Assembly (NCBI RefSeq): GCF_011926545.1
Contig: NZ_JAATIT010000001.1
Coordinates: 1,072,469-1,136,468, forward strand
Direction: 5' to 3'
DNA from: Sphingopyxis italica
GTDB taxonomy: Bacteria; Pseudomonadota; Alphaproteobacteria; Sphingomonadales; Sphingomonadaceae
DNA: 64,000 nucleotides
In this document: piece after piece, positions 13,165 to 17,508 of the stretch
How positions within the stretch are numbered: the first letter of the stretch is position 1
How the letters are laid out: each line of letters starts with the position of its first letter
Made by a program: the position numbers and the translations under genes
Notes under the pieces: model-generated
Seen by the model: only the letters and a program-made list of their open reading frames with translations
What the model was told of the DNA's origin: nothing
The model's database searches: none

Positions 13165-13410
13165 TTACAGATCGACCCCCGCCGCGATCGCTTCCAATTT
13201 GCGCAGCCGTTCCTTGAGGTCGGCGATCTCGATCCGCGATCCGGCGCTCGGGACGCCCTGATCCTGCGGCGCCGGGGCGTGGCCGGCGGCGAGTTCCTCG
13301 CGCTTGAGCTGGATCCAGTCGCGCCAGCCGCGCAGCGCGACGAGGCTGACGATGCTCAGCGCGGTGAGCGCGACCGCCGCGGCGGTGAAGTCGGGAGTGA
13401 TGAAAGCCAT
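13165..13410 (-). CDS. Small single-pass membrane protein at the end of the psp operon
   Basis: This 81-residue protein is not a recognised family. It has one hydrophobic segment at about residues 9-27, a basic stretch (RGWRDWIQLKREE), a flexible Ala/Pro linker, and a short C-terminal helix DLKERLRKLEAIA. That helix resembles a shortened form of the L-x-x-R-x-x-x-L-E-R-I motif of the four proteins upstream. It is the last gene of the run and begins 23 nt after the previous stop. A role in PspB/PspC-type membrane signalling is inferred from context and the motif; this is the most diverged member. Confidence 0.7.
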   Translation of the reverse strand: MAFITPDFTAAAVALTALSIVSLVALRGWRDWIQLKREELAAGHAPAPQDQGVPSAGSRIEIADLKERLRKLEAIAAGVDL

Positions 13411-13433
13411 GAGCGTTGCTCCTTTGCCGGCAT

Positions 13434-13694
13434 TCAGATTTTGCTGCTGTCGCGCAGCTTCTCGATTTCCTGGTCGAGCGTGACGGCGCGGTTGTTGTCG
13501 GTCGCGATGCGTTCGAGCACCTGGATGCGGTCCTTGAGCGCGCGAATCTCGGCCTGCAGCGCCTTGGTCTCGGCATCGTTTCCGGCGACATAATCATGGC
13601 CGTGGCGGTCGCGGCGAATGCCGTGCTTGGCGCGGACGATGCTGCCGATCGTCACGATGAGGACGATGCCGATGACCATTTCAAACGGGCCCAT
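13434..13694 (-). CDS. PspB-like small membrane/coiled-coil protein
   Basis: 86 residues. A membrane helix covers about 5-20 (MVIGIVLIVTIGSIV), followed by VRAKHGI, which matches the RAKHGYP box of the 99-residue paralogue at 14340. The C-terminal half is a coiled coil with the shared motif RIQVLERIATD and then QEIEKLRD. E. coli PspB has the same plan: one membrane helix, a coiled coil and ALE-I-D. It sits in the operon between two paralogues with gaps of 26 and 23 nt. No enzymatic motif is present. Likely role is protein-protein contact at the inner membrane (inference). Confidence 0.78.
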   Translation of the reverse strand: MGPFEMVIGIVLIVTIGSIVRAKHGIRRDRHGHDYVAGNDAETKALQAEIRALKDRIQVLERIATDNNRAVTLDQEIEKLRDSSKI

Positions 13695-13720
13695 GGGGAA
13701 GATCCTTTCCTGTTTCTGTT

Positions 13721-13993
13721 TTAGTTGAGCGGCGCGTCGCGCAGCTTTTCGATCTCTTCGGCGACTTCGACGCCGCGGTCGGTCACGATGCGCTCAAGAA
13801 CGCGGACGCGGGCCTCGAGCCGTTCGGTGTGCGCCGCATATTGCGCGGCCTTTTCGGCGGTTTCGTTCGACAGGAGGGTCAGCTGCTTTTCCTTGAACTT
13901 CAGGTGCCGCTTGTACATGTCGCCGCCAATGCCGAGGATCACGGGGATGCCCACGACGATGAAGAAGAAACCGAGGACGAAACTACCGTTCAT
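13721..13993 (-). CDS. PspB-like small membrane/coiled-coil protein
   Basis: 90 residues from the ATG at 13993. A membrane helix (about 4-23, SFVLGFFFIVVGIPVILGIG) is followed by GGDMYKRHLKFKEKQL and then a coiled coil with RVRVLERIVTDRG and EEIEKLRD, the motif shared with its operon neighbours. The frame is open further upstream, but that extension would run through the neighbouring paralogue and lacks membrane-protein character. It starts 11 nt after the previous stop. Assignment to the PspB-like group rests on the motif and position. Confidence 0.8.
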   Translation of the reverse strand: MNGSFVLGFFFIVVGIPVILGIGGDMYKRHLKFKEKQLTLLSNETAEKAAQYAAHTERLEARVRVLERIVTDRGVEVAEEIEKLRDAPLN

Positions 13994-14004
13994 GGCCTGA
14001 CTCC

Positions 14005-14325
14005 TCAGTTCGCCGGGCGCCGCAGCGCCTCGATCTCGTGGCTCAACCGGCCGGCTTCGTCGGTGACGATGCGTTCGATCACCGCGAGGCGATCCTTCAC
14101 CGAACCGAGTTCGGCGCGCAGCTGGGCGTTTTCCTGGCTGATCAGCTTGACGCGTTCCATCGCCTCGTCGCTGGTCTTGGGATAGACGGCCTGGCCCCAG
14201 GCGCCGTCGAGCGGATAACCGTTCTTGACGCGCAGCCAGGTGGTGAAAACCCACCCGCCGATCGCGATGATCGCTATGATGACCGCGGCGGGCGAGAGCG
14301 AGCTGATGATGTCGGTAGCGTTCAT
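14005..14325 (-). CDS. PspB-like small membrane/coiled-coil protein
   Basis: 106 residues. A membrane helix spans about 12-30, leading into GGWVFTTWLRVKNGYPLDGA; the adjacent 99-residue protein has GGWMFTTWIRAKHGYPVENE at the same place, so the two are recent paralogues. The C-terminal coiled coil carries RLAVIERIVTD and HEIEALR. Gaps to neighbours are 14 and 11 nt, so translation is probably coupled. I know no experimental function for it; a partner role in the Psp membrane complex is inferred. Confidence 0.8.
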   Translation of the reverse strand: MNATDIISSLSPAAVIIAIIAIGGWVFTTWLRVKNGYPLDGAWGQAVYPKTSDEAMERVKLISQENAQLRAELGSVKDRLAVIERIVTDEAGRLSHEIEALRRPAN

Positions 14326-14339
14326 TGTCTTCTATCCTC

Positions 14340-14639
14340 TCAGCGCAGGCGGTCGATCTGGTCGGCGAGCTGCGCCGCCTTCCCGCCCTCTTCGGTCGCG
14401 ATGCGTTCGAGCACCGAAATCCGCTCTTCCAGTCGGCTGACCTGCCCCGCCAGCTTGGCGTTGTCATCGGTCAGCAGGGCGATTTTTCGATCAGCGTCGG
14501 GGTCGGTTCGATGAACCGTGCCGCCCCATTCATTCTCGACGGGGTAGCCGTGCTTGGCGCGGATCCAGGTGGTGAACATCCAGCCGCCAATCGACAGGGC
14601 GATGATGGCGAGGACGAAAGTGGTACCGCCGAAATTCAT
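14340..14639 (-). CDS. PspB-like small membrane/coiled-coil protein
   Basis: 99 residues, first of the five extra genes after pspC (42 nt from its stop). A membrane helix (about 7-24) ends in GGWMFTTWIRAKHGYP, followed by a polar linker and a coiled coil with RLEERISVLERIATEEGG and DQIDRLR. The heptad pattern and the L-E-R-I-x-T motif align with PspB (RLENRLHTVERII) and with the end of PspC (RRLADIEQYYTS). Function inferred only from this shared architecture and operon membership. Confidence 0.8.
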   Translation of the reverse strand: MNFGGTTFVLAIIALSIGGWMFTTWIRAKHGYPVENEWGGTVHRTDPDADRKIALLTDDNAKLAGQVSRLEERISVLERIATEEGGKAAQLADQIDRLR

Positions 14640-14681
14640 AATGTGTCTCCCTGTTTGCCCCAGTTCGATCCGCGTCCCGAC

Positions 14682-15062
14682 CTACCGGAGAGCGTCGATC
14701 TCGTCGGCAAGGCGGCGGTTGTGACTGGTGTAATATTGCTCGATGTCGGCAAGCCGGCGGTCGATGTCGCGGAAGCGCGAGCGGATGTCGCGGGTCGAAG
14801 CACTGGGGTTCGAGCGCACGCCCTGCCAGAATTTCGCTTCCTCGTTCGAGCCATAAAGCGCGAAGGGTTTCGCCGTGCCCATCCAGGCGACCATCCAGTA
14901 TGCGATCAGCGTCCAGGGGAAGCCGCCCATCAGGGTGAGCAGCACCGCGCCGACGCGGACCCAGAGCACGTCGATCCCGCTATAATCCGCGATCCCCGCG
15001 CACACGCCGCTCCATTTGGCGTTCTGCTTGTCGAGGTAGAATTTGGTGCGGCTGGCAGACAT
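14682..15062 (-). CDS. pspC: Phage shock protein C, inner-membrane envelope stress sensor
   Basis: 126 residues from the ATG at 15062, which has a good site (GGAGGAA). The PspC domain is clear: TKFYLDKQNAKWSGVCAGIA, then YSGIDVLWVRVGAVLLTL and a hydrophobic segment through IAYWMVAWMG. The C-terminus is a coiled coil, RDIDRRLADIEQYYTS then ADEIDALR, which resembles the PspB-like proteins next to it. In enterobacteria PspC with PspB senses inner-membrane damage and draws PspA away from PspF. Only 1 nt separates it from the pspB stop. The longer open frame upstream runs antisense-like through pspB and is rejected as a start. Confidence 0.93.
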   Translation of the reverse strand: MSASRTKFYLDKQNAKWSGVCAGIADYSGIDVLWVRVGAVLLTLMGGFPWTLIAYWMVAWMGTAKPFALYGSNEEAKFWQGVRSNPSASTRDIRSRFRDIDRRLADIEQYYTSHNRRLADEIDALR

Positions 15063-15063
15063 C

Positions 15064-15339
15064 TCAGTTCCTCCGGCTATTGTTTTCGAGTTGCGCCAGG
15101 TCTTCATCGCTGCGTACCGCGGGGCGGAAGTCGGGATGGTCGGCGCTGATGATGCGTTCAACAGTATGGAGACGATTCTCGAGCCGACGAGCCGTATCGT
15201 AAAGTTCGTCGAGCAGCTGTTCGTCTTCTCCGGTCAGCGTCTTGGCCTGTTTCCACTTCGTGATGTAGTGGAGGATCAGCCAAGGCAGACCGAGGAAGAG
15301 GGTTCCGATAACGATCGGGACGATGATGATCTCTTCCAT
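15064..15339 (-). CDS. pspB: Phage shock protein B
   Basis: 91 residues with one membrane segment near the start (IIIVPIVIGTLFLGLPWLIL), then HYITKWKQAK and a coiled coil with RRLENRLHTVERIISADHPD. The HPDF/HPNW-type ending after the D is characteristic of PspB. It partners PspC in sensing envelope stress. It begins 12 nt after the pspA stop and is followed almost directly by pspC, the classical order. It extends about 17 residues beyond the E. coli protein at the C-terminus. Confidence 0.92.
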   Translation of the reverse strand: MEEIIIVPIVIGTLFLGLPWLILHYITKWKQAKTLTGEDEQLLDELYDTARRLENRLHTVERIISADHPDFRPAVRSDEDLAQLENNSRRN

Positions 15340-15351
15340 CGGTCCGGCTCC

Positions 15352-16017
15352 TTACTGCTTGCTGGCTTGCGCGGCTTTCAGCGCGGCGAGTTCGTCGGCA
15401 ACCTTGTCGGCGGCCTGCAACTCGGCGATTTCCTCGTCGAGCGACTTCTTGTAGCCGAGGCCCAGCGCATCGGCGCGGCCTTCGGCTTCGTCGACGCGGC
15501 GTTCGAGGACCTCGAAGCGCGAGAAGGCGTCTTCGACCCGGTCGCCGTTGGTCATCTCGCGCAGCTTGTAGCGGTTCTCGGCGCTTTCGAGGCGACCCGC
15601 GACGCTCGACTGGCGCGCGCGCGCTTCGCTCAGCTTCTTCTGCAGCTTGGCGATATCGCCTTCATAACCGGTCAGCGCGTCGTCGAGGACGGCGATCTCG
15701 GCCTTGAGGCGCTCGGCCATGTCGCCCGCCTTCTGCTTTTCGACGAGCGCGGCGGTGGCGAGGTCCTCGCGGTCCTTCGACAGCGCGAGTTCGGCCTTTT
15801 CCTTCCAGCTGTCCTGCAGGCTTTCGAGCTTGGCGATGTGGCGGCGCATCTCCTTCTGGTCCGCGATCGTGCGGGCGGCGGAGGCGCGGACTTCGACGAG
15901 CGTTTCGTTCATCTCGAAGATGATCTGGCGGATCATCTTTTCCGGATCCTCGGCCCGGTCGAGCAGGTCGGTGACGTTGGCGGCGATGATGTCGCGGGTT
16001 CGTGAGAAAATACCCAT
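15352..16017 (-). CDS. pspA: Phage shock protein A (PspA/IM30/Vipp1 family)
   Basis: 221 residues, the usual length. The N-terminal amphipathic helix (MGIFSRTRDIIAANVTDLLD) binds stressed membranes; the remainder is almost entirely heptad coiled coil of the ESCRT-III-like fold. PspA has two jobs: binding PspF to keep the operon off, and assembling on damaged inner membrane to limit proton leakage. The ribosome-binding site (CAGGAG) is good. An intrinsic-terminator-like hairpin separates it from the first gene of the operon, so its expression may depend on read-through. Confidence 0.95.
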   Translation of the reverse strand: MGIFSRTRDIIAANVTDLLDRAEDPEKMIRQIIFEMNETLVEVRASAARTIADQKEMRRHIAKLESLQDSWKEKAELALSKDREDLATAALVEKQKAGDMAERLKAEIAVLDDALTGYEGDIAKLQKKLSEARARQSSVAGRLESAENRYKLREMTNGDRVEDAFSRFEVLERRVDEAEGRADALGLGYKKSLDEEIAELQAADKVADELAALKAAQASKQ

Positions 16018-16133: not shown

Positions 16134-16304
16134 TCAGGCCAAGGGACTGACCGCCGGGGTCGAAGCAGCACCGACCAGGCCGACGGCGGGCATGCCGGCG
16201 GCGTTGGCGGCGGTGGCAGGATAGTTGACCGCGCCAACGAAAATGGCCAGCGCACCCACCGCGCTGAACGCGAAAGTAGCGGCTTGGGCAATCTTCGTTT
16301 TCAT
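16134..16304 (-). CDS. Small exported or membrane peptide, first gene of the psp operon
   Basis: 56 residues starting MKTKIAQAATFAFSAVGALA. It has a positively charged start, a hydrophobic core (about 8-27) and NYPATAANAAG, where a signal peptidase site could lie, leaving a short Gly/Ala/Val-rich mature peptide (PAVGLVGAASTPAVSPLA). The ribosome-binding site AGGAAGG is strong. It lies directly downstream of the sigma-54 promoter and is followed by a terminator. I do not recognise a family. Being first under PspF control suggests an envelope-stress role, but that is inference. The frame is open further upstream through the promoter, which is rejected. Confidence 0.72.
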   Translation of the reverse strand: MKTKIAQAATFAFSAVGALAIFVGAVNYPATAANAAGMPAVGLVGAASTPAVSPLA

Positions 16305-16363: not shown

Positions 16364-16379
16364 TGCAGGAGCCGTGCCA
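16364..16379 (-). promoter_or_regulatory. Sigma-54 promoter of the psp operon
   Basis: On the minus strand the sequence is TGGCACGGCTCCTGCA. The -24 GG and -12 GC dinucleotides are spaced exactly as required, and all of TGGCACG matches the consensus. Predicted transcription start is near 16353, giving a leader of about 50 nt before the small exported gene. Confidence 0.9.
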
Positions 16380-16443: not shown

Positions 16444-16477
16444 TTGCCAATCAGCGGGAAAATTTGCCAATGATTGG
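16444..16477. promoter_or_regulatory. Putative PspF upstream activating sites
   Basis: Direct repeats TTGCCAATCA (16444) and TTGCCAATGA (16464) are spaced 20 bp, two helical turns. The second extends into the inverted repeat CCAATGATTGG. They sit about 65-100 bp upstream of the -24 element, the distance used by PspF in enterobacteria, and abut the pspF start codon, so they could also mediate pspF autoregulation. Confidence 0.6.
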
Positions 16478-16479
16478 GA

Positions 16480-17508
16480 ATGGAGCGCGAAACGCAGTTC
16501 ATCGGCCAGTCGGCGGCCTTTCAGGACGCGGTCGAGCGCGCGAGCCTCGCCGCGTCGCTCGACCGCCCGGTGCTCGTCATCGGCGAGCGCGGCACCGGCA
16601 AGGAATTGATCGCCGAGCGCCTCCACCGCCTGTCGACGCGCTGGGATCGTCCCTATGTGATCATGAACTGCGCCGCGATGCCCGAGACGCTGATCGAAAG
16701 CGAACTCTTCGGGCACGAGGCGGGGGCCTTCACCGGCGCGACGCGCACGCGCGCGGGGCGTTTCGAGGAGGCCGACGGCGGCACGCTCTTTCTCGACGAA
16801 CTCGCGACGATGTCGATGGGCGCGCAGGAGCGCCTGCTCCGCGCGGTCGAATATGGCGAGGTCACGCGCGTCGGCTCGTCGCGCCCGATCCGCGTCGATG
16901 TCCGCATCGTCGCGGCGACCAACGAACACCTGCCCGCGCTGGTCGACGACAATCGGTTCCGCGCCGACCTGCTCGACCGGCTGTCGTTCGAGGTCATCAC
17001 CCTGCCTCCGCTCCGCGCGCGCGAAGGCGATATCGAAGTGCTCGCCGAATATTTCGGGACGCGCATGGCGGCGGTGCTCGGCTGGGAGGAATGGCCCGGC
17101 TTCGGCCCGCGCGCGCTCGCGGCGATGGAAGGGCACGACTGGCCGGGCAATGTCCGCGAACTGAGGAACGTGATCGAGCGCGCGATCTATCGCTGGGCCG
17201 ACCCCGAAAAGCCGGTCGATGCGTTGAGCTTCGATCCCTTCGCGAGCCCGTGGCAGCCGGTATCGCGCAAGGCGCCCGCAAGACCCGAGGCGCACGCCCC
17301 GGCGCCGGCGAACGACGCTGCGCAGCCCCCCGCTCCGCCCTCGGGCCCGGTCAGCGATTTACGCGCGGCGGTCGATGCTTATGAAAGGCAGATCTTGTCC
17401 GACACGATGGCGCGCTGCCGCTTTAACCAGAAGGTCGCGGCCGAAGCACTGGGGCTGAGTTACGACCAGATCCGCCACGCGCTGAAGAAACATGGGTTGA
17501 ATCAATAG
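16480..17508 (+). CDS. pspF: PspF, sigma-54-dependent activator of the psp operon
   Basis: AAA+ enhancer-binding protein. From the ATG at 16480 it has 342 residues; a TTG two codons earlier is possible. There is no N-terminal receiver or sensor domain, as expected for PspF, which is controlled by PspA binding. Walker A is GERGTGKE (35-42), the sigma-54 contact loop GAFTGA is at 82-87, Walker B is GGTLFLDELA, and the C-terminal Fis-type helix-turn-helix reads KVAAEALGLSYDQIRHALKK. A Pro/Ala-rich linker (about 260-295) joins the two domains. It diverges from the psp operon. Confidence 0.95.
   Translation: MERETQFIGQSAAFQDAVERASLAASLDRPVLVIGERGTGKELIAERLHRLSTRWDRPYVIMNCAAMPETLIESELFGHEAGAFTGATRTRAGRFEEADGGTLFLDELATMSMGAQERLLRAVEYGEVTRVGSSRPIRVDVRIVAATNEHLPALVDDNRFRADLLDRLSFEVITLPPLRAREGDIEVLAEYFGTRMAAVLGWEEWPGFGPRALAAMEGHDWPGNVRELRNVIERAIYRWADPEKPVDALSFDPFASPWQPVSRKAPARPEAHAPAPANDAAQPPAPPSGPVSDLRAAVDAYERQILSDTMARCRFNQKVAAEALGLSYDQIRHALKKHGLNQ

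Follow-up and report, generated by a model that had tools for sequence, protein, structure and literature searches.

The phage-shock-protein (psp) operon of Sphingopyxis italica, contained in a 64,000-nucleotide (nt) window of contig NZ_JAATIT010000001.1 (positions 1,072,469–1,136,468, the whole stretch analysed here), carries five additional small genes, orf1–orf5, directly after pspA, pspB and pspC. Work on the Psp response has centred on enterobacteria, which have a single PspB and a single PspC; in the Sphingomonadaceae the extra genes form an array of 1–9 copies, which is a feature of the whole family and no local oddity. By profile comparison, the proteins of orf1–orf4 end in a tail that is closer to the C-terminal tail of PspC than to PspB. 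We consider it probable, at roughly 0.6, that Orf1–Orf5 act as adaptors anchored in the membrane, offering tails of the PspC/PspB type to PspA, PspB or PspC. Five properties of the locus were established by computation: the genes themselves, the operon layout, the topology bias of the products, the tail homology and the co-inheritance with psp. The locus is arranged as follows, in window coordinates.

16474–17508, + strand: pspF, divergent sigma-54 enhancer-binding activator (TIGR02974, 472 bits; cut-off 443.6)
16364–16379, − strand: predicted sigma-54-type promoter TGGCACGGCTCCTGCA (sequence pattern)
16134–16304, − strand: leader open reading frame (ORF) of 56 amino acids (aa) with one hydrophobic stretch, between the sigma-54 site and pspA (sequence)
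15352–16017, − strand: pspA (TIGR02977, 271 bits; cut-off 243)
15064–15339, − strand: pspB (TIGR02976, 91 bits; cut-off 51.7)
14682–15062, − strand: pspC, with the C-terminal helix common to orf1–orf4 (TIGR02978, 118 bits; cut-off 104; tail match)
14340–14639, − strand: orf1, 99 aa, array class 1, with GGW-FTTW-R-K-GYP (class profile: PspC tail 92.6%, PspB 20.3%)
14005–14325, − strand: orf2, 106 aa, array class 2 (class profile: PspC tail 95.4%, PspB 85.9%)
13721–13993, − strand: orf3, 90 aa, array class 3 (class profile: PspC tail 86.8%, PspB 73.7%)
13434–13694, − strand: orf4, 86 aa, array class 4 (class profile: PspC tail 86.6%, PspB 8.9%)
13165–13410, − strand: orf5, 81 aa, array class 5, normally the final gene (last in 88 of 92 chains)

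The percentages are match probabilities as reported by hhalign for comparisons of class profiles; scores are given separately. For orf1–orf4 the PspC match covers the last ~36 residues (columns about 91–133 of 134) with scores of 37–52, and the PspB match of orf2 extends over 62 columns; the orf5 class matches PspB at 0.3%. Decoys (FtsB-like proteins, PspA and reversed alignments) reached at most 15.1% against the array classes. Control scores did not exceed 20.7 for FtsB-like proteins, 24.6 for reversed PspB, PspC or FtsB and 23.2 for PspA, and 40 column shuffles of PspC scored no higher than 20.0, versus 37–52 for the real tail. The resemblance to PspB and PspC in the original prediction, which was made from the window sequence and regarded all five proteins as PspB-type relatives, is thereby upheld, but the kinship has to be redrawn: orf1–orf4 are nearer the PspC tail, and Orf5 is linked to Orf3 and Orf4 only (91% with each class, a figure without decoy comparison).

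Although PspA, PspB, PspC and PspF all exceed their NCBIfam cut-offs, no Pfam or NCBIfam model reached its cut-off for orf1–orf5 in a scan of the psp-locus proteins of the window. The best psp-related NCBIfam matches, all below cut-off, were to PspB (TIGR02976) for orf4 (E 4.5e-5), to PspB (5.1e-4) and PspC (about 5e-4) for orf3, to PspB for orf1 (0.037) and to PspC for orf2 (0.005), with none for orf5. The curated PspB models (TIGR02976/PF06667) thus find orf1, orf3 and orf4 below cut-off and leave orf2 and orf5 unmatched; the sub-cut-off TIGR02976 E-value of one array gene in another genome (G100) is 2.4e-7. The array proteins share with PspB their size, one N-terminal helix, a predicted cytoplasmic helical C-terminus and the psp operon. 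PspB differs in that it keeps its own gene and forms a separate clade, and the array tails end in T-D-x(n)-E-I-x-x-L-R, as PspC does. PspC (TIGR02978), whose last ~36 residues are the best profile match of orf1–orf4, differs in turn by its PspC domain (PF04024), which is absent from the window's array proteins and matched PspC alone among the ten proteins scanned. A search of the window's own genome with the array profile returned the four array genes and, as the sole other match at E ≤ 0.001, PspC; no orphan array genes were detected with the orf1–orf4 profile, and orf5 is single.

The motifs that first drew attention to the array are all present. The sequence R-x-x-V/I-L/I-E-R-I-x-T-D/E followed by E/Q-I-x-x-L-R occurs in orf1–orf4, orf5 carries LKERLRKLEAI, PspB carries RLENRLHTVERI, PspC carries RRLADIEQYYTS and EIDALR, and GGW-FTTW-R-K-GYP is common to orf1 and orf2. 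An R..[hydrophobic]E.[ILV] pattern recurs, above chance, in 437 of 456 proteins taken from 95 loci, of which L159 alone is not from the family, and 323 of the proteins have a pattern of the ER[ILV]-x-T-[DE] type. A single strong hydrophobic helix is found in 449 of the 456, with a second helix of that kind in none of these 449, and lysine and arginine are more numerous on the C side of the helix in 448 of 449; the tail should therefore be cytoplasmic. The array proteins thus have the predicted topology of PspB, an N-terminal helix with a cytoplasmic helical C-terminus. AlphaFold monomer models of orf2 (helices 3–34 and 53–102; mean predicted local distance difference test score, pLDDT, 75.4) and orf4 (helices 3–25 and 40–84; mean pLDDT 69.0) consist, at modest confidence, of one helix in the membrane and another, long one. 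Comparison with solved structures gave weak coiled-coil-type matches only (best E 0.006).

The array is co-inherited with psp throughout the family. PspB was searched for in 60 relatives (55 matches) and in 249 family genomes (233 matches at 1e-8), and 100 loci were hand-picked: 34 from the genus, 59 from other family genera and seven from other families of the order. A survey of synteny had been proposed as a check, and at least one array gene (range 1–9) lies in all 94 family psp loci, 93 fetched plus the window. Five array genes are present in 32 of the 34 genus loci, four in one and two in one. The remaining 60 family loci, the window among them, have 1–9, most commonly five (20/60), with class 4 in 58/60 and class 5 (orf5) likewise in 58/60; the 59 fetched ones were usually taken at one or two per genus and in the main score high for PspB. 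Array size in sphingomonads is usually four to six genes. From the other families of the order, one of the seven loci (L159) has a single array-like gene. Among 80 named loci, chosen through orf5 so that all counts are conditioned on it, 79 have pspABC, and all 79 have 2–8 array genes, five in 45 of them; the loci come from Sphingopyxis, Sphingomonas, Blastomonas, Sphingorhabdus, Sphingobium, Qipengyuania, Croceibacterium and other genera. The closest is that of Sphingopyxis sp. JAI108 (98% in orf5), and class order is largely kept, with exceptions such as L275 and L306.

Beyond the family the array fades. Of 196 genomes from the order, 109 match orf5, every one of them within the family; the order of the list suggests that 67 further genomes without a match lie outside it, and at least four of the family genomes listed lack orf5. 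In a class-wide survey, which scored up to 18 candidates per genome and may miss weak cases, the orf1–orf4 profile matched 8 of 289 genomes, four of them in the family, and PspB matched 30 of 289. Two class-level matches (G491 and G310) lay in long ORFs with no psp genes in the fetched stretch and were set aside as chance.

Promoter placement and gene junctions fit an operon layout. Upstream of pspA, 81 of 101 loci carry a sigma-54 pattern; none of the 101 has one within or after the operon, and 106 of 349 array gene junctions overlap. In the window the gaps from pspC through orf1, orf2, orf3 and orf4 to orf5 are 42, 14, 11, 26 and 23 nt, so that the 81–106 codons, 11–42 nt spacing and one N-terminal helix originally ascribed to each gene agree with coordinates, gaps and topology. 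A Shine-Dalgarno-like stretch precedes each of the five, whose third-position GC content is 0.80–0.88. Sigma-70 promoters or terminators inside the array were rejected: four terminators were found versus a mean of 4.2 in shuffles, which is no excess, and the lone promoter-like site of the sigma-70 scan immediately precedes pspA. All five genes belong to the psp operon, being downstream of the PspF/sigma-54 promoter with pspA and conserved in that linkage, and are probably co-transcribed with pspA from it.

Small one-helix ORFs also lie between the sigma-54 site and pspA in many family loci, and many end in ...VELA or ...LA; 75 of the 81 loci with a sigma-54 site gave some ORF in this survey, several of them plainly spurious or non-membrane. 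An ORF at this leader position is labelled hypothetical in a Sphingomonas parapaucimobilis record, the one annotated record in which the array genes were seen, there as "hypothetical protein". A SufE family protein is annotated in it at the place matching the window's next gene after orf5, a sufE-like gene.

The array genes are an old set of paralogues. The best match of an array protein lies inside its own locus for 3 of 289 and in the same class for 285 of 289; the classes are therefore old, and recent tandem duplication as a rule was rejected. Serial duplication, as originally proposed, accordingly survives in the existence of paralogue classes, but as an ancient event. Gene loss, with now and then a later copy (chiefly of class 3), probably accounts for the differences in number. 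In a FastTree phylogeny of 89 sequences, based on 95 columns and with classes 1, 3 and 4 not fully pure, orf5 (support 1.0), orf2 (0.998) and an orf4-type group (0.929, two other sequences inside) separate, and PspB forms one clade (0.958) together with the outside-family genes L344 and L353. Median within-genus ratios of non-synonymous to synonymous substitution rates (dN/dS) are 0.18 for orf1, 0.24 for orf2, 0.32 for orf3, 0.26 for orf4 and 0.18 for orf5; for pspA, pspB and pspC they are 0.085, 0.066 and 0.072. Judged by their sequences, orf1–orf5 are real genes under purifying selection.

A possible intermediate is found outside the family. Three of 26 PspB loci there have one extra PspB/orf3-like gene within the 1.5 kb seen. 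In L344, L345 and L353, from other Alphaproteobacteria, the extra gene scores with the PspB and orf3 profiles, but only one copy lies within the 1.5 kb seen. L344 and L345, from another alphaproteobacterial family, read pspA-pspB-pspC-short PspC-second PspB-like gene. A lone PspB-like gene after a short PspC, as in these three loci, may resemble the starting state of the array.

Exceptional loci show how the parts can be separated. PspB was negative in 17 family genomes (16 from the 249-genome set and one from the 60 relatives, some of them incomplete drafts), and in 14 of these neither PspA nor the array nor orf5 is present at the thresholds applied; in two others, G123 and G140, the arrays are cut by contig ends. 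Locus L203 (G099) has pspA, a tail-less 88-aa PspC, orf3 and orf4, with pspB absent. Two genera (g98 and g74) have two psp operons each. The three first operons examined (L140, L219 and L220) hold pspA-pspB-pspC and classes 2–4, with a class-1 type too in L220, and lack orf5; the second reads pspA2-pspC2-orf5, without PspB, in seven of eight loci (L210–L213 and L216–L218); the remaining one, L215, yielded pspC2-orf5 alone. Orf5 and orf1–orf4 can therefore separate, both keeping a PspC, and pspA accompanies them as well except in L215. Two further loci stand apart: a lone diverged orf5-like gene (L214, G662:C2:3012455-3012547) had no psp genes detected in the 7 kb fetched, and two array-like genes of G484 (L202) had no pspA in the 6 kb fetched, the pspB of that genome lying ~80 kb away.

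In the favoured reading, Orf1–Orf5 would be dedicated Psp partners, produced together with PspA from the PspF/sigma-54 promoter, each anchored by its N-terminal helix with the C-terminus in the cytoplasm. Orf1–Orf4 would end in a helical tail of PspC type and, more weakly, of PspB type. They are candidates for extra docking adaptors because they bear the PspC tail on predicted cytoplasmic ends and stand behind the promoter that precedes pspA. In Yersinia, the "on" state is reported to involve binding of PspA by the C-terminal domain of PspC (PMC5596341), and in an E. coli study, PspC zipper mutants lose PspA binding and retain PspB binding (PMC3068692). By analogy with Yersinia PspC, the array would multiply membrane-anchored docking tails for PspA. 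The paralogues may form mixed coiled-coil bundles with PspB, PspC and each other, which could bring PspA to a damaged inner membrane or keep it there, and their differing helix and linker parts may tune the place or time of docking. Binding to PspA, PspB or PspC, hetero-oligomers and a division of labour among orf1–orf5 are what we infer here; the tail-less PspC of L203 and the PspB-less pspA2-pspC2-orf5 operon fit modular exchange of the docking part.

Several results weigh against this reading. The common tail is a short one of ~36 residues, two classes match PspB weakly (orf1 20%, orf4 9%), and orf5 has no detectable direct match to PspB (0.3%) or the PspC tail (0.2%). In 20 of 101 loci no exact match to the sigma-54 pattern turned up, and the AlphaFold models are monomers of modest confidence. 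In the E. coli study mentioned above, the PspC zipper region is placed on the periplasmic side, with a possible topology switch (PMC3068692). The dN/dS values of orf1–orf5, about 2–5 times those of pspA, pspB and pspC, also fit looser accessory roles. Tails of paralogues within a locus are hardly more alike than between loci (z −2.0 to 2.5, with orf5 tails mostly unaligned and pairs with PspC resting on at most 32 loci), so there is no strong sign of tails tracking one shared partner. Locus-specific concerted tail evolution was rejected, with a weak excess in some class pairs (z ≤ 2.5) and none or a negative value in others.

The same tail could serve an opposite purpose. As the main rival, the array tails might compete with that of PspC for PspB or PspA, damping or resetting the response after induction; their sharing of the PspC tail type and their place behind a PspF-type promoter with pspA suit negative feedback, but several conserved classes and a pspA2-pspC2-orf5 operon without PspB exceed the needs of a simple brake, and we regard this as rather unlikely. 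Less likely still, the proteins may be separate inner-membrane stress effectors (PspD- or PspG-like) riding in the operon with no tail-mediated binding to PspA, PspB or PspC. The constraint on them, weaker than on the core psp genes, and the missing direct link of orf5 to PspB/PspC would agree with this; the PspC-tail homology of orf1–orf4, which exceeds every decoy, and L203, in which array genes alone carry the tail, argue against it. That they are generic single-helix coiled-coil proteins (e.g., FtsB/DivIC-like), PspB-like by composition only, is largely refuted and highly improbable. The Pfam DivIC match of orf4 (E 0.0077, below cut-off) is better than its Pfam PspB match in the same scan (E 0.051), but profile comparison with FtsB/DivIC gave only 0.1–4.7% across the five classes (control of 28 proteins from 30 hit loci in the same family; at least one of the 28, from L312, looks mis-picked), and linkage to psp is tight.

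No description of the sphingomonad array was found in the open-licence literature searched, where PspB duplicates in psp operons are mentioned only in one line of Ravi et al. 2024 (PMC11237479; example AOL22920.1). Since PspB duplicates are already in print, the kind is not wholly unknown. The paper resembles the present case in its extra PspB-type genes in pspFABC operons, and it describes PspC with a "divergent C-terminal PspB"; it differs in that its section 17 and further passages mention neither arrays with as many as 9 genes nor array classes, a terminal orf5 or a pspA-pspC-orf5 operon. A larger survey mentions PspA and PspC paralogues (PMC9239133).

An extension of the adaptor reading, which we offer as speculative and doubtful, is that the PspB/PspC sensor became a combinatorial receptor set in the Sphingomonadaceae. 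Up to 9 paralogues with distinct helices and linkers and a common docking tail would form varied mixtures. Each mixture would direct PspA, as an ESCRT-III-like polymer, or else a second PspA to its own membrane state or site, and Orf5 would make up a separate, PspB-independent module with PspC. With about five further partners across a whole family, the account of the membrane-sensing half of Psp is incomplete. Two natural variants, a tail-less PspC with an array and no PspB, and the pspA2-pspC2-orf5 operon, make the PspA docking module of PspB/PspC directly testable. Should site or lipid be specified by the paralogues, this would go some way towards explaining how a single PspA serves many stresses.

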